Source: a virus. From it: DNA of 21,959 bases. The stretch is from positions 1 to 21,959 of the IMG/VR virus record IMGVR_UViG_3300021957_000360; one strand, 5' to 3'. This document shows positions 4,597 to 15,807 of this stretch, piece by piece (positions within the stretch are counted from its first letter, which is position 1; each line of letters begins with the position of its first letter). Both the position numbers and the translations under genes were made by a program. The notes under the pieces were generated by a model. It did not search any database. It was not told where the DNA came from and saw nothing but the letters and a program-made list of their open reading frames with translations.

Positions 4597-7500
4597 ATGG
4601 CTACTTTTGAAATACAGATGCCTGATGGTGGCACTTATCAAGTAGAAGCACCCGAAGGAACCACAGACGCGCAAGCTTACCAATATGCGTTAAGCCAAGT
4701 ACCTCCACCCGAACCCGAAGTCGGCATAGGTGAAGCGTTTACTACTGGTTTTGAGCGGGGTGTGGGGCGACTTGGTTCTACCATTACAGACATAATTCCT
4801 GCGTTAGCGGGCAGTGCTGTAGGTGCGGACGAATATGCACAACGCCAATTCCAAGAGGCTGCCGAGAAAGAGGCAGCTTTGCCTGCTCCTATATTTCCAA
4901 GCTATAAAGACGTAGAGGGTGTAGGAGACTTTACCAAGTTCGTTGCCGAGACTATCGGTGAGCAGATTCCTAATCTGGGTGTGGCTCTTGGTACCGCTCT
5001 TACAGGAGGGGCGGCTGCTCCTGTACTCGGCGCTACGCGTGCGGCGGGTCAACTTGCTGGCGCAGGCTTTGGTTCCTACGCACTTAACGCCCCTGAAATA
5101 TTCCAGAACATATACCAAGAGACCGGAAAAACTGCGCCCGGTACAGCCTTGCTGTTTGGCTCCGCTGCCGCTGCACTAGATTCAATTCTTCCTGCTGCTT
5201 TAGCTAAAAATATCTCTGGTCCTATGAAAGCAGGAGTAGTAGAAAAACTACTTGAAAAGTCAGGCATGTCGCGGGGTGTATTGCGGTCGGGCACTGCGGG
5301 CTTAGCAAAAGGTCTTGGTACAGAAGGTCTTACAGAAGGCGCGCAAGAAGGTATTAGCATCGCTGCTGAACGCTTTATCGACGACAACCCAGACATCTTT
5401 GGTAGCAAAGAGTTTGACCGCATAATGGAAGCTAGTGTCCGTGGTGCTGTGGCTGGCGGTGGCTTTGGTACAGTTGGCGGTGGCGTGCAGGGCGCTAGAG
5501 AAGGCATAGGACGTGCCCAACGACTCGCTGAGCTAGAAGAATCGCGTAAGCTAAGAGATGAGCTTAACAGAAAAGCAGCGGAAGAAGCTGAGTTAACTTC
5601 TACTATTGAAGACATACAAGCGCAGCCAGAACAAGGTGATTTATTTGGCGCGCCTGTGGTCTCAACACTAGTGCCTCCTGCGCGCCCTGAAGGTGAACCA
5701 GAAGTTACCCCTAGCGTAGCTAGATTTATGGAAGGTCGCCCGCAACCTAAAACTCGCGTTGCTAAATTTACTGACGAAGAAGTTAAAACCGAAGCAAAGC
5801 GTAGAAGCAAAGCTAACAAAACTCAAGAGTCAGTTGAGTTTGCCAACGTGTGGCGAGAGGTTAAGGAAGCCCGCGCTGCCGAAGCAACAGCTTTGTCCAA
5901 CCAGATAAAAGCCCAAACCGAAATGTTTACCACTAAAGGTAATTTAACTCGCTCTGTAGCTAGCCAAAACACAGCTTTCAATGCCCTCCAAAAGAAAGAA
6001 AGAGCTGCGCAGAAAAAATTAGACGCTGCTGCTGCCAAAGCTGCTAAAGCTGCCGAAGCAGCTCAAAACAAAGCCGCAGTAGAGGAGCGTAGAGCAGCGG
6101 AAAAATTAGCTAAGGAGCAACGCACGCGGCTGCAAAAAGCTAAGCAGTTGGAGCTAGACTTACAACCTACCATAGCTACTACAGAAGTTGCGGAAGATGC
6201 GGTTGCTGCGCGGCAAGGTGACATATTTGCGGGGCTGCCGGGTGAGCAAACCCGTGCTCCTAGCGTAGGTAAAGACCTAAATAAGTTTCTTAAAGACCAA
6301 GGCTTACCTGTTAACGCCGCCACCAAAAAAGCTTTTGCGGGCCGAGACTTGGCTGTGCCTGAGCAACGTGCGCAAGTAGTAACTGATTTACGTGCCGTAG
6401 CCGAGCGCAGTGGTTCCGCTGCCAACATAAATGCTATTGATGCTGTTATCCAGCAACTCGAGCCTACCGCTAAGCCTACGGCTGCGCCTGTAGTTGAGGA
6501 AGTAGGAACGGAAGAAGTGGTAGCTGAGCCTACTAAGAAAGCTGAGACTAAGACTGCCGCGCCTGTAGTTGAAGAAACAACAGATACTGTAAAAAAACTA
6601 ACGGGTGAAGACGGAAAACCGCTAATTTTATACAGAGGAATTGCTAGTGAAGAGAGCATCCCAGAAGCAGCGTTACGTGGGGAACCTAGAGAGGGTTATG
6701 CTGTTTTTGCATCAACATCTCCTTACGTCGCTGCCAGTTATAGTGGCACTCTAGAAAGCGGGGAGACACAAATAGAGAGCGTGCTGGGCGAAGAGGGTAT
6801 TGTAACAGGCGCTACAGTACCATTGCACGTTTACGCAGATAAGGTTATAGAATTTCCTGTACGTGTAGGCCGTGATGGCTCCCGCTCTTTTAGCTTTAGT
6901 GATTTTGATGCTGAAGCTACTAAACTACCTGCTAACACTGTTCTGGTAGCTAGACAAGTATATGACAGCGGGCCGCGAGTCAGTAAAGTTATTGACCCAG
7001 AAAGTTTATACAGCTTCCCAAGCGATATTTATGCGTGGAGCAAAGGCACAAAAACAACTTCTGCTACTGAAGCTAAAACTACTCCTAAGACTAAGACTGC
7101 CGCGCCTGTAGAAGATGTAGTAGTGCCTGCCGGTGAAGCTGCTGTAGCAACAGAGCTAGAAGAAGCCTCGGCCTTAGCAGCGCGTATAGACACAGAAACT
7201 ACGGATTTTCTTGCCCGAGAGATATACGACGCAAAGTTAGCCGCGGGGCGCATAGCCAACGGCAGGGCGCTGTCTGGGCTTTCCGTGCAAGAACAGCAAG
7301 AAGCTATAGCTAAAAATGTATTTCCTGAAGACATAAAAGCAGTTAAACAAGCCGACGGCGCTTCGCTAGGGCTTTCTAGGTTGTTGAGCGCCTACAGAGG
7401 TTATATAACTGGCGATAATACCCAGTCGGCTAACCCCGAAGCTGCACAGTCGCTAGTAGAGCCTATAGAAAAAATTATAGGGAAAGAAGAAGCTGACGCA

Positions 7501-10500
7501 TTGTTGCCTAACATAGCATCTGCTACCTCAGAAGCGTTTGCTAACATGCTGTCCACGGTAAACAGCCGAGCACGTACTTCTGTAGCAACAAAGATACGAG
7601 AAGAAATACTTCCTAAGTACGGACGCAAGAACGCGCCTGTCTACAAGGGCGCTGCCTTTAGCCCAGAGATAAGTCAGCTTGCAACGCGCGGACGACTCGC
7701 ACCTTTGCTTAATAAGCTAATCCCCAGCCAATCGCCCGAGATACAGCGCGTACTACGTAAGATTGGTACGCAAAACCTACGTACTCGCGTTGTCGTTGGT
7801 GCCACTCCAGAAGGCACAAGTGGTTTCTACGACGCGGCTACTGATGTAATTACGCTGAATCCAACTAGCGGTATGAATGAGCATACGGTTCTTCATGAGG
7901 TAACTCACGCTGCTTTAGCACAGGCACTAAACAACCCAGACCTGCAAATTACTAAAGACTTCTTTGATTTCTATTCGCAGATTGTCCCCACTATGGACGG
8001 GTTCTACGGTGGGCAAGACTTACAAGAATTCGCTGCTGAGTTAGTGGGTAACCCAGAGTTCCAAGCACTGCTTAAGCAGGTAAAAGCCCCGCAGGGCAAG
8101 AAAACTATGTGGCAGACCATTATGGATGCCATTGCTAAATTCTTTGGTTTTCGCAAAGGCCAGAGTGCTTACAACAAGGGCTTAGACTTTGTAGACAAAA
8201 TACTCGACGTATCCCAAGGCGTAGAGCCTACGCTTACCGACCAGTTGTTCTTAGGCACGCCTAAAATGGGCGTTGATACTATCGGCAAACTAATGACCAG
8301 CGGCAAAGAACTAGTGGGCAGTAAGAAAGAAAGCTTACTAGATGGTCTTTCTAAGTTAGGCACTACTAGCGGAGGCGGAAGGATTCTTAGCAACGCCCTA
8401 CGTGCGCTTCGCTTAAATGATTTGGTACAGTTATACGGTAAAAAAATACCTGCTCTTGGGAAGCTGCGTGACGCTATCCTCCAACGCCAAGGTGCAGTAG
8501 AGAAGGCTAGAAAAGCTGCACAAATAAAATACATAAACTTTAAAAAGATAACTAGAAAGAAACCCAAGCAGGCGGAGCAACTTGCAGAGTTAGCCTCAGA
8601 AGCACGGCGAGAAGGCTTTGATCTTGTAGGGGTAGACCCAGAGTTTGATGTGAATGGGCTGTCGGCTGAGCAAAAAGCCAAGTTTAGCAACATGATGACG
8701 CGCCTGCGCCGTTTAGATTCTGGCGTGCAGCAGATGTACAAGGATATGCGTGAAGATTACCGGCGCATGTACGATCAATATAAGAGCTATGTTCTAGACC
8801 AAGTTAAGGACGGCAAGAAGCGGGCTGAACTAGAGGCAAGATTTCTACGTGAAACATCAGCTCCGGGGTACGTGCCTTTCCTACGTTTTGGTGATTACTT
8901 CTTAGACTATACTGATCCGGCTACAGACGAGCGTGTGGTTGAGGCATTCGAGTCCCCGCGTGAAAGGCAAAAATTTATAGACGCCAATAGAAATGACATT
9001 GCAGGGGAAAAGGTATTTGATCGCACTGCTAATGCTACTTTTAGTAAGGCAGACTTCCCGCCCAATAGTTTTGTGTCGCAGTTGATGGATGCTCTTCCCG
9101 CCGAGCAGCAACCTATTGTGTACGAGCAGCTCCTTACTCTGTACCCCGAAAACTCTTTTATGCAGCGTACGCGTAAGGCAGATAAAGTACGTGGCGAGAC
9201 TAAGGACTTAGTACAAGGCTACGCAGATACCATGCTCAAGTGGGTTACCAAGCAAGGTAACTTAGAGTTTTTGCCTGAGATACAAAGCAGTCTAAACGAA
9301 ATAAAAGCCGCTAAGGTTACTGGCGTAGAAGCAGCAGTTAAAGAAGAGATAGGTCGCCGCGAAGAGTTTATTTCTAATCCGAACTACGGTCCTGTGACTT
9401 CTTTCTTTGCAACGTCTGCCTACAATTTATTCCTAACAGGCAATGTTTCTTCTGCAATCGTTAACTTAAGTGCGGTTCCTCTACTGTCCGGCCCGTTGCT
9501 TGTTGGTGTTTACGGTTTTAGAAAGAGTAACACGGCGCTTCTTCGCGCTATGCGCATTGCCAAGCCGAGCCTAAAAGATTGGAACTCGGATACTCAAACC
9601 TTTGAACCTGCGTGGGTTAAAGACCCTAAGTACGCCAGCTTAGTAGAAGGCTTGGATGCTATGGGGCAGCGCGAGCACACCATGCAACGTGAGATACTAG
9701 AAGGTTCTAGGCAGCGCGCGCAGGACTACGACGCACTCGGCGCTAAAGCTATGAACCTTGCTAGCCTGCCGTTTACAGAAGCGGAGAAGTACAGCCGTGC
9801 TACTACAGCAATAGCAGCGTATGAACTTGCTAAAGCAGAAGGTAAGTCAGACGCAGTAGCAGTGGAGGAAGCCGTAAAGCTTACTATGGATGTGCACACT
9901 TCCGGTATGGCGGCAGAGGGTCCTAGCTTGATGCAGGGTAACTTCGGTCGCGTAATGTTTACGTTTAAGAGCTTTATCTGGAACAGTGCTGTTATCACCG
10001 CTATGGCAACGAACAACGCCCTGAGGGGGGAGACTCCGGCGATACGTGAGATGGCTCGTAAACAAGTGCTTGGCATCTACGGTATGAGTGCAGCTATCGC
10101 GGGTATTAACGGACTGCCTTTTTATGGTGCGGCTGCTACGCTCGCAAACATGATGGATGCTCTGCTTGGTGACGATGACGAACCGTTTAATGCCAAAGAA
10201 GAAATGCGTGCATTTACCAACGAGTTTATCTATAAAGGCCCGTTGAATTACATAACTAACTTAGAAATATCTAATCGTGTAGGTCTAGCAAATGGCTTAC
10301 TGTTCCGAGAAGACCCGTACAGTGTCGAGCAGAATGGCTACGTTATGACCGCTATTATGCAAGCTATGGGTCCTGTGGGTAGCTACGCACTCAACATAGA
10401 GCGTAATGCGGGACGTTTGCTAGAACAGGGCGAGATCGGACGGTTCTTTGAAGCTATATCCCCAAGCGCGGTGCGTAATGTAATTAAGACTGGGCGATAC

Positions 10501-10911
10501 ATGCAGGAAGGCGCGCGTACTATAGACGGACAGCCTATTGTTGAAGACTTAAGTGGGTACAATTTGTTTTTACAAGCGTTTGGTTTCAGCCCTGCGAGTC
10601 TGTCTAGCTTATATGAAAACCGTGCGGCTGCCCTTAACTACCAAGCACAAGTGCGTAATAAAAAGCAGAAAATACTTAAGAAGTACTACATGGGCGTAAC
10701 TACGGGCGATAGCGACTTGATGCGAGAGTCGCTACGGGAATTCAATGAGTTTAGCCGTAGCTTCCCCGGTCTTGTAGGTCCTGATACGTTAGAGAGATCG
10801 TTTAGGTCTAGGCAGTCCTACGAAAAAGACTTAGTGCTTGGTATGAAATTCGATAAAGGGTTACAGAACAAGATAAACGATAAGTTCCTAGCTGAATTTA
10901 TAGAGCCTTAG
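4597..10911 (+). CDS. Giant polyvalent-type protein with ART-like and HExxH metallopeptidase domains (2104 aa)
   Basis: The ATG directly follows the previous TAG, with an AAAGAG site upstream. Domains in order: 1-45, a small phage N-terminal domain (MPDGGTYQVEAPEGT); 125-300, glycine/alanine-rich hydrophobic stretches with EGLTEGAQEG at 243-252; 395-525, charged coiled coil; 665-817, an ADP-ribosyltransferase-like domain with LYRG (R680) and FASTSP (704-709); 1065-1185, a metallopeptidase with HEVTH at 1100-1104 and a likely third ligand in QEFAAE (E1144 or E1148); 1200-2104, a long helical region with hydrophobic segments near 1600-1650 and 1825-1860, resembling LPD38-type regions of polyvalent proteins. 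Such proteins are thought to be injected with phage DNA and to act on host targets. Alternatively it is chiefly a gp16-like ejection protein with accessory enzyme domains. Ejection is inferred from position after the transglycosylase. Confidence 0.85.
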   Translation: MATFEIQMPDGGTYQVEAPEGTTDAQAYQYALSQVPPPEPEVGIGEAFTTGFERGVGRLGSTITDIIPALAGSAVGADEYAQRQFQEAAEKEAALPAPIFPSYKDVEGVGDFTKFVAETIGEQIPNLGVALGTALTGGAAAPVLGATRAAGQLAGAGFGSYALNAPEIFQNIYQETGKTAPGTALLFGSAAAALDSILPAALAKNISGPMKAGVVEKLLEKSGMSRGVLRSGTAGLAKGLGTEGLTEGAQEGISIAAERFIDDNPDIFGSKEFDRIMEASVRGAVAGGGFGTVGGGVQGAREGIGRAQRLAELEESRKLRDELNRKAAEEAELTSTIEDIQAQPEQGDLFGAPVVSTLVPPARPEGEPEVTPSVARFMEGRPQPKTRVAKFTDEEVKTEAKRRSKANKTQESVEFANVWREVKEARAAEATALSNQIKAQTEMFTTKGNLTRSVASQNTAFNALQKKERAAQKKLDAAAAKAAKAAEAAQNKAAVEERRAAEKLAKEQRTRLQKAKQLELDLQPTIATTEVAEDAVAARQGDIFAGLPGEQTRAPSVGKDLNKFLKDQGLPVNAATKKAFAGRDLAVPEQRAQVVTDLRAVAERSGSAANINAIDAVIQQLEPTAKPTAAPVVEEVGTEEVVAEPTKKAETKTAAPVVEETTDTVKKLTGEDGKPLILYRGIASEESIPEAALRGEPREGYAVFASTSPYVAASYSGTLESGETQIESVLGEEGIVTGATVPLHVYADKVIEFPVRVGRDGSRSFSFSDFDAEATKLPANTVLVARQVYDSGPRVSKVIDPESLYSFPSDIYAWSKGTKTTSATEAKTTPKTKTAAPVEDVVVPAGEAAVATELEEASALAARIDTETTDFLAREIYDAKLAAGRIANGRALSGLSVQEQQEAIAKNVFPEDIKAVKQADGASLGLSRLLSAYRGYITGDNTQSANPEAAQSLVEPIEKIIGKEEADALLPNIASATSEAFANMLSTVNSRARTSVATKIREEILPKYGRKNAPVYKGAAFSPEISQLATRGRLAPLLNKLIPSQSPEIQRVLRKIGTQNLRTRVVVGATPEGTSGFYDAATDVITLNPTSGMNEHTVLHEVTHAALAQALNNPDLQITKDFFDFYSQIVPTMDGFYGGQDLQEFAAELVGNPEFQALLKQVKAPQGKKTMWQTIMDAIAKFFGFRKGQSAYNKGLDFVDKILDVSQGVEPTLTDQLFLGTPKMGVDTIGKLMTSGKELVGSKKESLLDGLSKLGTTSGGGRILSNALRALRLNDLVQLYGKKIPALGKLRDAILQRQGAVEKARKAAQIKYINFKKITRKKPKQAEQLAELASEARREGFDLVGVDPEFDVNGLSAEQKAKFSNMMTRLRRLDSGVQQMYKDMREDYRRMYDQYKSYVLDQVKDGKKRAELEARFLRETSAPGYVPFLRFGDYFLDYTDPATDERVVEAFESPRERQKFIDANRNDIAGEKVFDRTANATFSKADFPPNSFVSQLMDALPAEQQPIVYEQLLTLYPENSFMQRTRKADKVRGETKDLVQGYADTMLKWVTKQGNLEFLPEIQSSLNEIKAAKVTGVEAAVKEEIGRREEFISNPNYGPVTSFFATSAYNLFLTGNVSSAIVNLSAVPLLSGPLLVGVYGFRKSNTALLRAMRIAKPSLKDWNSDTQTFEPAWVKDPKYASLVEGLDAMGQREHTMQREILEGSRQRAQDYDALGAKAMNLASLPFTEAEKYSRATTAIAAYELAKAEGKSDAVAVEEAVKLTMDVHTSGMAAEGPSLMQGNFGRVMFTFKSFIWNSAVITAMATNNALRGETPAIREMARKQVLGIYGMSAAIAGINGLPFYGAAATLANMMDALLGDDDEPFNAKEEMRAFTNEFIYKGPLNYITNLEISNRVGLANGLLFREDPYSVEQNGYVMTAIMQAMGPVGSYALNIERNAGRLLEQGEIGRFFEAISPSAVRNVIKTGRYMQEGARTIDGQPIVEDLSGYNLFLQAFGFSPASLSSLYENRAAALNYQAQVRNKKQKILKKYYMGVTTGDSDLMRESLREFNEFSRSFPGLVGPDTLERSFRSRQSYEKDLVLGMKFDKGLQNKINDKFLAEFIEP
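6545..6568 (+). repeat. 24-bp direct repeat, left copy flanking the ART-like domain
   Basis: A perfect 24-bp match to 7088-7111, in the same reading frame, encoding the linker residues KTAAPV and neighbours. A shorter relative (GCGCCTGTAGTTGA) lies just upstream near 6484. The two copies bracket the ART-like domain of the giant protein. Confidence 0.9.
7088..7111 (+). repeat. 24-bp direct repeat, right copy flanking the ART-like domain
   Basis: An identical copy of 6545-6568, offset by 543 bp, which is exactly 181 codons. Recombination between the copies would remove the ART-like domain without a frameshift. Confidence 0.9.
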
Positions 10912-11102: not shown

Positions 11103-13866
11103 CGTCTGCTTCCTTCGCTATTGCCCTTGCCCCAATAAACTCTGGGTGAGATGAATCAAGCCACACACAGCGGGTAGGGGTTGTGGTCATAGGCATACCT
11201 TTACCCATATCTTTGTTGTGTACTTTTATGCAGCAACCTTTGGCTTTTAGCTCAGCAATAGTGCGGTTGTAGTCCACTTGCTTATGGTCCCAGTATTTCC
11301 TTAGCTTACTTACCGCTATGTACACTATTTTTGCATCTGGCTCTTCACGTATATAGAGCGCGCCGCGTGGCTCTAAGTAAGGACGTTTAGTTTTACCTGA
11401 ACGAGCGTCTGCCTCCGCGTCAATAGACAGAACATTAGGAACGTGCTCGTTAATAAACTCGCCTACTAAAGCAAAGCAATCGCTTACTGGGGCTACCGTC
11501 TCTGCACGCATAACTTTAAGCTGAGGCGCTACTTTCTGAAAGATACGTTTCATTCCAAAGTCTATGATGCCGGCTTCTACTGCTAGCACGCCCGCAGCTA
11601 TATTAGAAGCTATAATAGCAGACCAGTTTCTTTCCCGTTGCGTCAAGCTCAACTCTTTGTCTATCTTAGCCTGTATCCCAAGCAACGTGCTTTTCGCGTG
11701 GTCGGGGTTCGCCATAATGTGTTGAACAAAAGGTATGATTGCATGCCCAAAGTTCTGGCTTAACTGGTGGTCAAACATCTGTTTGCCTTCAGCCGTAGAA
11801 ACTACATCCACGCCTTGGTAGTCAATAGTAAACTCAATGATGCGCATCAGCTCGCCATCAGGTGCGTTCTTCAAGCTCATTAGCTTCTGGTAGAAGGAGG
11901 CATTACTCGAAGACAAGGTTATGTTACGCCATGTAATCTCGTTCTTACGGTTGGCGTTTATGTGCATCTGGGCTTTCTCTTTGCCCCTGCCTTGCGAAGC
12001 AGCGTAAGCAAACTTACCTACTTCTGTCTCGTCTAAGTTAGTAAGCTCGTCCATAGTGTTGACTATGTTATTCAACGTGCCTAGCTTGTTTATCCGTCCG
12101 ACTGCGGTGTCGTCTGGCGTACCTAACAACATCTCGGGGTCACCCGCAATACTATTAGCCATACGCAATATTGTAGTTTTGCCTGTACCTGCATGAGGGT
12201 GAACTAGGTTTATGATAGCGCCTTTCTGCCCCGTAAACTTAAGTAAGGTAGAGCCAAACCCGCTAAGCGCAGCGAAAGCGTGCACTTCTAAACCCGGTCT
12301 ATTATATATGTTAAATACTTCTTGCCACTTCTCGTAAGACCCACGGGGCTGTAAGAAGTCACTGTATACGTTAGTAACAGTTGAAGGCGGCGAGTGATAT
12401 ACACCGTCTACTTTTACTTCACTTTCTCCAACGATGAAGGAAGTGTCTCCATCTGCCCAACCAAATTGTACGCGCATTTTATCCGCCGCCTTTTCTGTGC
12501 CCAATGCTTTAATGGAGTCAATAACATACTTATGCAAGTGGGGAGTAGATTTTTTATCCGATAGGATACCGTTTTTAGCTAGCACCCTAGTAAGCTCCCG
12601 GGTGTCTAACTGTTCATTCTGTATAGTAAACTCTCGTTTACCGTCTCTGGGGAGGTACACGACTCCTATAGCCACGTCGCCGTCGTTAGGATCAGTCATA
12701 CGTTGGCTTATATAGAAATCATATTCGTACACAAAGTGCGCTTCGCCTTCTTTATCCTGCACATAGATACCGCCGTTCTCTCCTTTTAAATAAGGAGGGC
12801 GATACTTAACAGGCCCTACACTATTGCTAGCTCTCTTAACTGTTTGCCCTAGCGTTATGGGGGTCTTTATCTTGCCTTTGTGTGGGCAACCTTTGCACCC
12901 GTCAGGGTTATGGGAAGCAAACTCTGTGCATGAGTGCGGGCCTTTAATACCGTGCATCTTACGTTGGGTTGCTTCAAAAGAATAATCAGGGTGACCCTCA
13001 GAGAGGATGACCGCCGCCTTCGTGCTGTCGCTACAGAACTTAGCAATTGATAGCGCGTCGAACCAACGCGGTTCTTCTAAATCCTGTCGGGTCCGGATAC
13101 AATCTTGGAGCTGCATGCACCCGTCACTACGTGTAACTATGCGTTTGAACACACTGGTGTAGTTTGAGTACTCTAATTCTTCAAGCGGGCTTAGTGCTAC
13201 CGCGCCGCGTTCTACTTCTTCTGCTTCAGAATCTACACCTAGTATTTCTCTTAGGTCGTCCGGTGTAATTCGTTTAGCGTTTGGGCGTATAACAGTTACT
13301 GGAGCAGGGGGATCGTATTTTTGATTAAAGGTCCCCGGCACTCTTAATATGCGAGACGCATCAAATACTTTTTGGTCAGCGTAAAACTCTTGTGTAACAC
13401 AGACTTGCTTTAAACGTTTGCAGATGGGTAGCCACCGCGTCCTTGGCACTTCTTCAGTTAGCGCCCAGTAAGCGTGTATCCCACCGCCAGAATCTATTAC
13501 TACAGGAAAGGGTAGCCCCACCGTTTCACAAAACTCTTTTAGCGCGAGTTGCGCTTCTTTCTTAGTTTCGTAACCCTTAGGTTGGCCTGTTGCATCGTCT
13601 ATGTCGTTGGCCTTTCCCTCGCCACAGTCGATGTCTACCCAGATAGACTGTAAAGATTCTACGTTTGTTGCTTCTCTGCTTCCGGCTTCTGTCACCTTCC
13701 CTAGCATGAAGTAAACATCCTTGCCTTGCTTAACAAACTGCTCGACTAAAATGTCTACTTCTGCTCGGTCCTTTGTGTACTCTGATTTGAAGCCTGAGCC
13801 TGCGCCAACCACACAGTAATAGCCGCCTTTAGGGACTACATAATCTATGAGGTTGAAGTCAGTCAT
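11071..13866 (-). CDS. Primase-helicase: AEP primase domain fused to DUF927-type helicase (931 aa)
   Basis: The N-terminal part is an archaeo-eukaryotic-type primase: WVDIDCG (D78, D80) supplies the metal-binding hDhD motif and DSGGGIHAYW (125-134, H131) the nucleotide-binding motif. A zinc-type cluster (SCTEF...DGCKGCPHKG) sits in the linker near residues 315-340. The C-terminal half is a P-loop helicase of the DUF927 type, with Walker A HAGTGKTT (558-565, K563) and Walker B NTMDEL (D606, E607), ending in a winged-helix-like tail. It should unwind DNA at the fork and lay primers for the family A polymerase at the other end of this arm. The ATG overlaps the stop of the HTH gene as ATGA. The family calls are from visible motifs; the exact AEP subfamily is not assigned. 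Confidence 0.9.
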   Translation of the reverse strand: MTDFNLIDYVVPKGGYYCVVGAGSGFKSEYTKDRAEVDILVEQFVKQGKDVYFMLGKVTEAGSREATNVESLQSIWVDIDCGEGKANDIDDATGQPKGYETKKEAQLALKEFCETVGLPFPVVIDSGGGIHAYWALTEEVPRTRWLPICKRLKQVCVTQEFYADQKVFDASRILRVPGTFNQKYDPPAPVTVIRPNAKRITPDDLREILGVDSEAEEVERGAVALSPLEELEYSNYTSVFKRIVTRSDGCMQLQDCIRTRQDLEEPRWFDALSIAKFCSDSTKAAVILSEGHPDYSFEATQRKMHGIKGPHSCTEFASHNPDGCKGCPHKGKIKTPITLGQTVKRASNSVGPVKYRPPYLKGENGGIYVQDKEGEAHFVYEYDFYISQRMTDPNDGDVAIGVVYLPRDGKREFTIQNEQLDTRELTRVLAKNGILSDKKSTPHLHKYVIDSIKALGTEKAADKMRVQFGWADGDTSFIVGESEVKVDGVYHSPPSTVTNVYSDFLQPRGSYEKWQEVFNIYNRPGLEVHAFAALSGFGSTLLKFTGQKGAIINLVHPHAGTGKTTILRMANSIAGDPEMLLGTPDDTAVGRINKLGTLNNIVNTMDELTNLDETEVGKFAYAASQGRGKEKAQMHINANRKNEITWRNITLSSSNASFYQKLMSLKNAPDGELMRIIEFTIDYQGVDVVSTAEGKQMFDHQLSQNFGHAIIPFVQHIMANPDHAKSTLLGIQAKIDKELSLTQRERNWSAIIASNIAAGVLAVEAGIIDFGMKRIFQKVAPQLKVMRAETVAPVSDCFALVGEFINEHVPNVLSIDAEADARSGKTKRPYLEPRGALYIREEPDAKIVYIAVSKLRKYWDHKQVDYNRTIAELKAKGCCIKVHNKDMGKGMPMTTTPTRCVWLDSSHPEFIGARAIAKEADDASGESELPD

Positions 13867-14096
13867 TTTTTATACTCTATTATTAGTTGTTTAATAGTAT
13901 CTGTTAGTTCTTCACTGGGCTTGTGAACTCCTGAAAACCAGTTGTAAACAGTTTGGCGGCTAACCCCAAGCTGGTAAGCAACTTGAGCCACGGGAACTTC
14001 CTTCCGGATGCACACGCGACCTAGTTTTACTCCCAGCATGGTGCCGTCAGCTAGTTTATTTAAGCTACCAAGCCTTGTTGTGTAGCCATAGCTCAT
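13863..14096 (-). CDS. Small helix-turn-helix DNA-binding protein (77 aa)
   Basis: Residues 36-56 (VAQVAYQLGVSRQTVYNWFSG) form a standard XRE/Cro-like helix-turn-helix followed by KPSEEL. I chose the ATG at 14096 because it overlaps the stop of the SSB gene as TAATG, like its neighbours; an in-frame ATG six codons upstream (14114) is possible but overlaps SSB further. It lies between SSB and primase-helicase, so it could be a regulator of this operon or an origin- or helicase-loading factor. The inverted repeat inside the candidate promoter at 15841-15861 is a plausible target. Role is inferred. Confidence 0.85.
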   Translation of the reverse strand: MSYGYTTRLGSLNKLADGTMLGVKLGRVCIRKEVPVAQVAYQLGVSRQTVYNWFSGVHKPSEELTDTIKQLIIEYKK

Positions 14097-14851
14097 TAGT
14101 CTTCGTCGCCCCATATATCAATGATGTCAGACATCTCTTCGTCCTCAGCAGGTGCCACTTCTTTTTTCTTCTTACGCTTAACAGGCTCCGTAACTTCCGG
14201 CTCTTCTTCGTCCTCAAACAAATCCGGCTGCTTGGTAATCTGTCCTTCAGCTTCAAACATACCATCGTCGTCTTCAACGGCCGCAGGCTCGGCAAATAGA
14301 CTCTTGCTTTGGTCAGCGGTGAAGCCGTCAACCGCATCAAAAGGAGACGCAGGTTTGTAAGGAATGTACTCAAGCACCTGTACACCACGGAGCCTAAGAG
14401 ATACACCAGTAGAAGCCATCTTAAACGGGATCATCTCGACTGCTATGCTTACGGTACTACCTGTAGTCAGCATAAAGTCAGCGCCAAGGCGTTCGTTCTG
14501 AGCGTCAAACTGAGCAGGTGGCTCGGTTATGCTGCCACTATAAGCTGCTTTCAGACTAGTCTTACCTACAAAACTACCATCGTCTTGCTTCTTGAAAGGC
14601 ATCTCTAGTTTAGCGGGCCAAGACTTGTCGCGGCTTTTTGCGTTGGTGTAAGCATCCTGCATGATTTTGTACAGAGCTTTAGCTTGAGCGGCAGACAGAT
14701 TAAAGTCTAGCTCGTAACGCGCACCGTCTTCGGCGGGGTCGCATGGGACGCTTTTACCGTTCTTCCCTGCCTTGTTGTCAAACCGATAAGGCTTATCCAG
14801 ACGTGGGTAGCGAGCTTCAACGTTCTTGATTATGTGAAATTGATTAGCCAT
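14096..14851 (-). CDS. Alternative short product: SSB alone from internal start (251 aa)
   Basis: Codon 192 of the fusion gene is an ATG preceded by CAGAGGAACTATAC, an AGAGGA Shine-Dalgarno sequence with seven bases of spacing. This is better than the site of the full-length start. The product would begin MANQFHIIKN exactly at the edge of the OB-fold-like domain and would be a normal-sized phage SSB. Two in-frame products from one gene are therefore likely. The alternative is that the site is fortuitous. Confidence 0.6.
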   Translation of the reverse strand: MANQFHIIKNVEARYPRLDKPYRFDNKAGKNGKSVPCDPAEDGARYELDFNLSAAQAKALYKIMQDAYTNAKSRDKSWPAKLEMPFKKQDDGSFVGKTSLKAAYSGSITEPPAQFDAQNERLGADFMLTTGSTVSIAVEMIPFKMASTGVSLRLRGVQVLEYIPYKPASPFDAVDGFTADQSKSLFAEPAAVEDDDGMFEAEGQITKQPDLFEDEEEPEVTEPVKRKKKKEVAPAEDEEMSDIIDIWGDED

Positions 14852-15424
14852 GTATAGTTCCTCTGAGTTTCCTGTAAAAGGATTGGTTGGTTGCGAAGCC
14901 GCTTTTAATTGCTGCTCCACGTTCGCAAGTTCTTCCTCGGCTAAAGGTCGAACCGGTTTAAAATATATCCTATACGAGTTGTAATGCTCGACGAGATATA
15001 ATTCGGTTAAGATATTCTCTACTTCTTCTTGGTTCTTTTCTAAGTACTCGATGTACTTGTACCACCCAAGCCTATTAGTTTCTTTAGCAAACAAGCTGCT
15101 CGCGCTTATGCGTACTTCGCAAACTATATTGTCTTTAGGTAGTAATACTTCAATAACAGTATAAAACTTACACGCCGCGCCCCGGTTATACCCGCCGCTT
15201 TTAATACTTTTAGCGCAGTCCATGCACCGGTTAGCTTGCACCCTACTATCGGGCACATTGTCATCAGGCCGCGCACAACCAGTAGACCAACACGCTAAGC
15301 CATTACTGTCGTAGTAACTCCTAGATAGCTCTCCCCTACGTACTATCACTACTTGTAGCGAATCGCGGGGGGAGTTGGTCCGTGGGTGTATGAAGCACCC
15401 ATTTTCATTTTTAAGTCGAATCAT
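14096..15424 (-). CDS. Zn-domain plus gp2.5-like single-stranded DNA-binding protein fusion (442 aa)
   Basis: The protein has two parts. Residues 1-175 contain a five-cysteine zinc-type cluster (C45, C50, C67, C70, C85; CMDCAKS core) like a small uncharacterised domain found in other phages. From residue 192 onward (MANQFHIIKN) it resembles phage OB-fold ssDNA-binding proteins, with a TGVSLRLRGVQVLEY strand near 340-360. It ends in a very acidic tail (DIWGDED) of the kind SSBs use to contact replication partners, and the tail includes QPDLF (399-403). The ATG overlaps the previous stop as ATGA and has no good ribosome binding site of its own, implying translational coupling. A separate start at codon 192 has a strong one. 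It is followed by the HTH and primase genes, consistent with a replication role. Confidence 0.8.
   Translation of the reverse strand: MIRLKNENGCFIHPRTNSPRDSLQVVIVRRGELSRSYYDSNGLACWSTGCARPDDNVPDSRVQANRCMDCAKSIKSGGYNRGAACKFYTVIEVLLPKDNIVCEVRISASSLFAKETNRLGWYKYIEYLEKNQEEVENILTELYLVEHYNSYRIYFKPVRPLAEEELANVEQQLKAASQPTNPFTGNSEELYMANQFHIIKNVEARYPRLDKPYRFDNKAGKNGKSVPCDPAEDGARYELDFNLSAAQAKALYKIMQDAYTNAKSRDKSWPAKLEMPFKKQDDGSFVGKTSLKAAYSGSITEPPAQFDAQNERLGADFMLTTGSTVSIAVEMIPFKMASTGVSLRLRGVQVLEYIPYKPASPFDAVDGFTADQSKSLFAEPAAVEDDDGMFEAEGQITKQPDLFEDEEEPEVTEPVKRKKKKEVAPAEDEEMSDIIDIWGDED
14861..14868 (-). promoter_or_regulatory. Internal ribosome binding site for the short SSB
   Basis: Read on the minus strand this is CTCAGAGG, continuing AACTATACATG. 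It lies inside the fusion gene at the boundary between its two domains and decides the second start. Confidence 0.55.
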
Positions 15425-15807
15425 TTTTTACGCGGCTTTAATACAGAAACAATATACTTACGGTTTGTTTGTAGCCCCGCAGGCATAAGATCAGGGTTGT
15501 CCTCAAGAAACTCTTGCATAGATTTGGTAGAGATTCGTTTCTCAAGTAAGTGAAAGGCATCGTTCTTCTTTACGAAGTCGTGCATTCTTTCCCAGTCGCT
15601 AGTCCAAAAGTGAGTCTGCACTCGGCGGCTAACTGTGCCAGAGGGCGTTCTTAGACTATCGAGGTCTTGCTCTTCGCAGAGCGCAAGCAGCTTTTCTACT
15701 ACAGTCTCTTGCTGCTTTTTTATTTTCTTTATATCTTCTTCTTTCTCTTTGACTGCTTCCCGCATCTTAAGATAGATTTTGGTTAGCTTATCTGCTGAAT
15801 CCTTCAT
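15421..15807 (-). CDS. Conserved phage protein of unknown function (128 aa, FWTSDWE motif)
   Basis: The N-terminal 55 residues are a charged coiled coil. After a TPSGTVSRRV segment comes HFWTSDWERMHDFV (66-79) and later EFLEDNPDLMPAGLQ (about 99-113). I recall this pattern from a small protein encoded among replication genes in many phages; no function is established to my knowledge. The start has a strong AGGAGGA site (15811-15817), and a promoter-like sequence lies just upstream. The stop overlaps the next start as ATGA. It is probably the first gene of a transcription unit with the SSB, HTH and primase-helicase genes. Confidence 0.8.
   Translation of the reverse strand: MKDSADKLTKIYLKMREAVKEKEEDIKKIKKQQETVVEKLLALCEEQDLDSLRTPSGTVSRRVQTHFWTSDWERMHDFVKKNDAFHLLEKRISTKSMQEFLEDNPDLMPAGLQTNRKYIVSVLKPRKK

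Follow-up and report, generated by a model that had tools for sequence, protein, structure and literature searches.

A fused phage gene with a conserved internal start, predicted to yield both a two-domain and a free single-stranded DNA-binding protein

The use of an internal in-frame start to draw a second protein from one gene is an established phage device, and its use for a single-stranded DNA-binding protein (SSB) is apparently new. The nearest example in logic is gene 4 of phage T7, which supplies a replisome protein in two forms, one of them lacking the N-terminal zinc domain; the 63-kDa (gp4A) and 56-kDa (gp4B) primase-helicase forms and an M64G variant are cited in two papers (PMC9484634, PMC9198812). 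Genes I/XI and II/X of M13 also yield C-terminal products from internal in-frame starts (PMC9228878), these being assembly and replication-initiator proteins, unlike an SSB, and Cas11, translated from inside cas8, duplicates the C-terminal domain as a separate protein (PMC11899642), again unlike the present case in that the products are CRISPR effector subunits. Here we describe a marine phage gene on the minus strand (14096..15424) of IMG/VR virus record IMGVR_UViG_3300021957_000360, the whole of which (21,959 nucleotides) is called the window. It encodes 442 amino acids (~50 kDa) laid out as a predicted zinc-type oligonucleotide/oligosaccharide-binding (OB) domain, an SSB of the T7 gp2.5 type and a disordered acidic tail. 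From comparative sequence evidence we think it probable, at about 0.83, that this gene yields both the 442-residue fusion and a free 251-residue SSB. While T7 gene 4 drops a small zinc ribbon, the window gene would drop a whole predicted OB-fold domain and leave an SSB as its short product, and the proteins are unrelated. We know of no fused or split relatives of the two M13 gene pairs. A search of the open-access literature, which was not exhaustive and left subscription papers mostly outside, turned up no SSB described as having an internal start.

As proteins, the closest described relatives are T7 gp2.5 and Enc34 ORF6, which have in common with the C-terminal half of the fusion a sequence profile, a fold, a long helix after an early strand and an acidic tail (PMC5686142). 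Both are single-domain proteins from single-start genes, unlike the fusion in the window.

Two starts and their conservation

The internal start is the ATG of codon 192 (14849..14851; features are on the minus strand unless stated otherwise), preceded at a spacing of 7 nt by the Shine-Dalgarno (SD) sequence AGAGGA (14859..14864); the DNA 5′ of this ATG reads ctcAGAGGAactatacATG. Initiation here would give the free SSB (14096..14851, ~28 kDa). The full-length start is quite different: its ATG (15424-15422) overlaps the TGA (15423-15421) of the upstream gene to form ATGA (15421..15424), and the region 5′ of it, gtattaaagccgcgtaaaaa, has no SD. Scored against an assumed bacterial consensus anti-SD, the internal site reaches -6.0 kcal/mol and the full-length start -0.1, so that both features of the initial annotation, a strong site at codon 192 and a full-length start that has no good site and overlaps the upstream stop, are borne out. 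The upstream gene (15421..15807, 128 amino acids, PHROG 13900) has a strong SD of its own (-9.6) and is a candidate to feed the full-length start by translational coupling. A separate promoter for a short mRNA was also considered and set aside, as a promoter scan gave 5 matches where 2.7 were expected, which is close to chance; a weak one (9/12) lies at 14856-14829, overlapping the seam itself.

Homologues were gathered by scanning IMG/VR with the whole protein, an alignment of that protein and each domain, giving about 310 loci altogether, of which 223 carry both domains in one frame, some contigs having been fetched repeatedly. By shared sequence, the fused form comes from about 110 distinct viral contigs and 93 distinct proteins. 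In two loci (L073 and L084) the reading frame is broken within the fused gene, probably through sequencing errors in the contigs. The seam was analyzed in 52 representative fused homologues for methionine columns and in 42 distinct boundary contexts for anti-SD energies; identity among fused homologues falls to 43-50%, with insertions and deletions in the linker.

Every fused homologue examined has the in-frame seam ATG. Met192 is the sole invariant methionine column (52/52), the others changing to L, I, V, Q, K and other residues. The seam SD has a mean energy of -6.3 kcal/mol, with 83% of contexts at or below -5, as against -2.0 and 9% for the remaining 313 in-frame ATGs of these open reading frames (ORFs), and synonymous recodings of the same seam peptides average -3.7. 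In synonymous shuffle tests the excess was marked among 35 lineages clustered at 90% identity (z -6.9) and among 15 lineages at 70% identity (-5.9 against -3.9 when recoded, z -4.1, 1/20,000). Codon choice follows suit: 25 of 28 lineages use GAG for the SD-forming Glu, compared with 34% elsewhere in the same ORFs (p 1.8e-9), and the SD-forming Lys codon is AAG in 8/8 against a background of 49%. Two of the three lineages without GAG keep AAGGA through an AAG, and in the third the Glu lies outside the SD.

It is important to stress that this occurs in a linker whose residues are replaced wholesale (SEELY, IEEIF, KEQE, VEQF, REELF, KDID, KETY, EGNTY) and whose length varies too, and that nearly every case still has an SD ~6-9 nt away from the ATG. 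Thus NSEELY is encoded with GAGGAA, PFKEQE with AAGGAGCAA, EQKDID with AAGGAT, QDKETY with AAGGAA and SEGNTY with GAAGGA. Averaged over 15 lineages, the mRNA around the seam ATG ranks within the ~10% of ORF positions that have the least structure. The initial annotation had proposed checking whether the internal ribosome-binding site (RBS) is conserved, and had noted that fused homologues with no conserved boundary ATG or RBS would speak against two products; the SD is indeed retained through linker turnover, and no fused homologue examined lacks the ATG. Overall, the pattern is that of an internal in-frame start and RBS under purifying selection, as judged from the alignments.

The full-length start is consistent too. 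In 42/42 distinct contexts its codon, ATG or GTG, shares bases with the upstream stop (NTGA), and its SD energy averages -0.9, only 7% being at or below -5; therefore the pairing of a weak, coupled start with a strong internal one is a conserved feature of the family.

The two domains and their separate relatives

The C-terminal half is of the gp2.5 type. Residues 192-442 match PHROG 112 (E 1.8e-14) and, by profile, PDB entry 1je5 (E 5.6e-8), and the single-sequence score against Pfam SBB_T7 is only 13 bits, for a cut-off of 27. The predicted model superposes on 1je5_B with Z 15.5 over 162 residues (root-mean-square deviation 4.0; model residues 193-372 on chain residues 2-202), model residue 193 falling on gp2.5 residue 2, and on Enc34 5odl with Z 14.7. 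A long helix directly after the second barrel strand is the hallmark of T7-type SSBs (PMC5686142), and in the DSSP assignment of the model a long capping helix (H245-260) follows strand E236-243. The disordered tail (aa 365-442; 14096..14332) is acidic like those of other SSBs and ends DEEMSDIIDIWGDED, its last residues being DIIDIWGDED, with W438 invariant among homologues. This half is thus a T7-type (gp2.5/DUF2815) SSB by sequence and predicted fold, for which single-stranded DNA (ssDNA) binding is predicted. Since the gp2.5 match begins at residue 193 and includes the hallmark helix, the product begun at Met192 would comprise an entire SSB.

The N-terminal domain (14852..15424; aa 1-191 with the linker) belongs to the PHROG 27714 family. 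The initial annotation was right about a gp2.5-like SSB and miscounted in speaking of a five-cysteine domain: there are seven cysteines, five of them within residues 45-85, and C45, C67, C70 and C85 are invariant among homologues. The model of some 180 residues (predicted local distance difference test (pLDDT) 85, predicted template modelling score (pTM) 0.80) is a beta barrel with a Cys-rich insertion, and linker residues 185-193, Met192 among them, fall below pLDDT 50 and are probably disordered, with an NPF motif widely retained in the linker. In non-T7-type SSBs a capping helix lies between barrel strands 3 and 4 (PMC5686142), and in the DSSP order of this model helix H121-130 sits between strands E100-107 and E138-147. 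The best structural matches are the phiC31 recombination directionality factor (RDF; Z 7.9), T4 gp32 (1gpc, 7.8), RB69 gp32 (2a1k, 7.7) and BRCA2 (7.7), values below 8 at which a match may reflect no more than a common arrangement. The prediction makes this half likely to be a complete OB fold and not a small finger, and the "Zn-tethered" form of the initial annotation is better read as an SSB joined to a second, predicted zinc-type OB fold.

How far the likeness to gp32 extends is harder to judge. The zinc of gp32 is held by a histidine and three cysteines. What the N-terminal domain may share with the T4 gp32 core is a predicted OB fold and a Cys-rich, probably zinc-binding insertion (Z 7.8 over 147 residues), with the cysteines spaced C-x21-C-x2-C-x14-C, unlike the gp32 site; no sequence match to gp32 was found among solved structures. 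Because the structure scores are middling, the likeness is treated as a lead from modelling. The domain was also considered as a copy of the SSB half; hhalign found only a short NPF/SPF tail motif, so it is not a recognizable SSB paralogue.

Both parts also occur on their own, which the initial annotation had proposed to check. In ten distant contigs (L297, L298, L300, L301, L303, L304, L306, L307, L308 and L310) the gene for the N-terminal domain has its own stop and is followed directly by a separate SSB gene. In seven of the ten the SSB ATG stands 9-18 nt past the stop and has an SD such as AAGGAGACTAACC in front of it; L297 and L307 have their called ATG a few codons earlier, with the same AAGGAG just 5′ of the next in-frame ATG, and in L310 AGGAGA abuts the called ATG. 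The first residue of the split SSBs corresponds to the internal Met, and stand-alone SSBs begin there as well. Among cultured phages, Roseobacter phages CRP-831 and CRP-406 have the SSB alone, and KPP25, Xp15, Effie, Rollin and RHph_TM3_14A have the N-terminal domain without a fused SSB; these last were reached with the split-form sequence of L304, as the N-terminal domain used as a single sequence matched no phage record. Rhizobium EVB41_075 (409 aa) and the Rollin protein (488 aa) were looked at as possible fusions and rejected, their length being due to low-complexity tails; neither contains an SSB domain or a seam start. A tree of the SSB gene (57 rows, weak deep branches) places the fused forms apart from the split and SSB-only forms on a branch supported at 87/93, the truncated fused locus L021 set aside, and would fit either a single fusion or a single fission.

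The tails of these relatives differ at their tips. The stand-alone Roseobacter SSBs (L022 and L023) end DDALPF or DDEIPF, resembling bacterial SSB tips, and the fused and split forms end DIIxxWG(D/S)xD or WDD; perhaps the tip was switched with a change of partner. The stand-alone PHROG 27714 proteins of cultured phages (L311-L315) are located in replication modules, and several have long low-complexity tails with W/acidic tips as in SSBs (..FAGWDD in Rollin, ..IANKW in Effie, ..GNW in Xp15). By sequence they are a candidate for an unannotated gp32-like SSB family.

What the internal start could mean

Several explanations can be envisioned for a start-like sequence at this position. The ten split contigs suggest that the seam is a former gene boundary, so that one would at first expect the SD and ATG to be an unused remnant of the fusion, with the 442-residue protein as sole product. 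A remnant would decay, however, and at 43-50% identity, with linker indels, the ATG stands in 52/52 and the SD retains its GAG/AAG bias; one lineage (L019) keeps AGGA even though the linker has gone from EE to KD, and we think a relic improbable. The pattern might otherwise follow from the protein, in that an E/K-rich linker and Met192 were kept for their own sake and the resemblance to a start is incidental. Codons for E, K, R and G are indeed SD-prone, the synonymous null already lying at -3.7 to -4.0, and the widespread NPF motif speaks for some constraint, but the codon bias exceeds the amino-acid effect, the linker residues vary freely, and Met192 sits in a disordered linker at the very residue where separate SSB genes begin; this makes coding constraint as the sole cause very unlikely. 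Proteolysis in the linker, which is plausible where pLDDT is below 50, could produce a short SSB with the internal start as a minor contributor, and yet it would leave both the nucleotide-level conservation of the SD and the invariance of the ATG unexplained. It is the explanation in which we place the least belief.

A further alternative concerns the N-terminal domain and is compatible with two products, namely that its OB fold is RDF-like or binds a partner and serves to recruit the SSB to a replisome or recombination complex. OB folds do not always bind DNA, and the phiC31 RDF is both the top match, tied with gp32, and the only Foldseek match in the PDB below 1e-3. On the other hand, the ssDNA-binding OB folds of gp32 and of BRCA2/RPA are among the best matches, and stand-alone members lie in replication modules, some with SSB-like tips on long tails. 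We consider partner binding possible, if doubtful, and lean slightly towards a gp32-like module that itself binds ssDNA.

Some observations weigh against the reading of two products. Support from the shuffle test falls with stricter clustering (10 lineages at 60% identity: z -2.4, 172/20,000), and the low structure at the seam may in part be that of an AT-rich disordered linker (AT rank 0.15). Lineages of the L067 and L157 type have weak seam SDs (-2.9 and -3.3). The anti-SD was taken to be the bacterial consensus, which may differ from the host's own; a scan for prophage relatives in genome contigs gave 53 pattern matches and no relative, and hence no host. In favour of two products, the MKN clade (L067-L072, L074, L076-L082), where the seam SD is weakest (-2.7 to -3.3), has an extra ATG 22-23 codons upstream of the seam that is not found in the rest of the family (LAEEEL to LAEDEM; PLAEDEM). 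It is preceded by GCGGAGGATGAG, GCAGAGGATGAG or a near variant, at -5.8 to -9.5 in those scored, and the internal start seems to have moved or doubled in this clade.

Returning to two products from one gene, the following course of events is envisioned. Ribosomes that finish the upstream gene would restart at the ATGA and make the fusion, in which a short flexible linker would join the zinc-type OB domain to the gp2.5-type SSB, while other ribosomes would enter at the codon-192 SD and ATG and make only the SSB. Of the two products the free SSB would predominate, and it would coat ssDNA in replication and recombination. The minority fusion would add a second module, for binding ssDNA or a partner, with the acidic tail in common, and might work as an SSB of two modules or serve to anchor the SSB to a partner; the N-terminal domain may bind ssDNA in a zinc-dependent way. 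The arrangement could have originated when two neighbouring genes lost the intervening stop and the RBS of the second was retained. In its fullest form, this would mean that adjacent genes for a gp32-like zinc-type and a gp2.5-like ssDNA-binding protein fused, that the inner RBS was selected, and that a two-OB SSB is made together with a larger amount of single-OB SSB, the strength of coupling fixing the ratio, a scenario we rate a little above even.

Neighbouring genes and implications

The PHROG 13900 gene carries the label "minor head protein" even though it is part of the replication operon and immediately precedes the Zn-OB gene. The same order recurs in KPP25, Xp15, RHph_TM3_14A and Rollin, where the gene for the N-terminal domain directly follows a PHROG 13900 gene or one annotated "minor head protein". 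Its product has weak similarity to Mu Gam and Pam3 gp33, and the label is doubtful. On the other side, an 83-aa helix-turn-helix gene (13863-14114, minus strand) begins within the 3′-terminal part of the SSB gene with no SD (+0.7), and its stop is overlapped by the start of the primase gene, apparently another coupled start. Convergent with the replication operon, 4597-10911 on the plus strand encodes a large polyvalent protein of 2104 aa with an LPD39 domain.

Taken together, single domains, adjacent genes and a fusion with an inner start form a comparative series that shows how a gene fusion could add a new protein and retain the old one. PHROG 27714 is widespread and stands as "hypothetical protein" in KPP25, Xp15, Rollin, Effie and Rhizobium phages. 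Gene callers annotate the long product only, and therefore every genome of this kind would be given an SSB of the wrong size.
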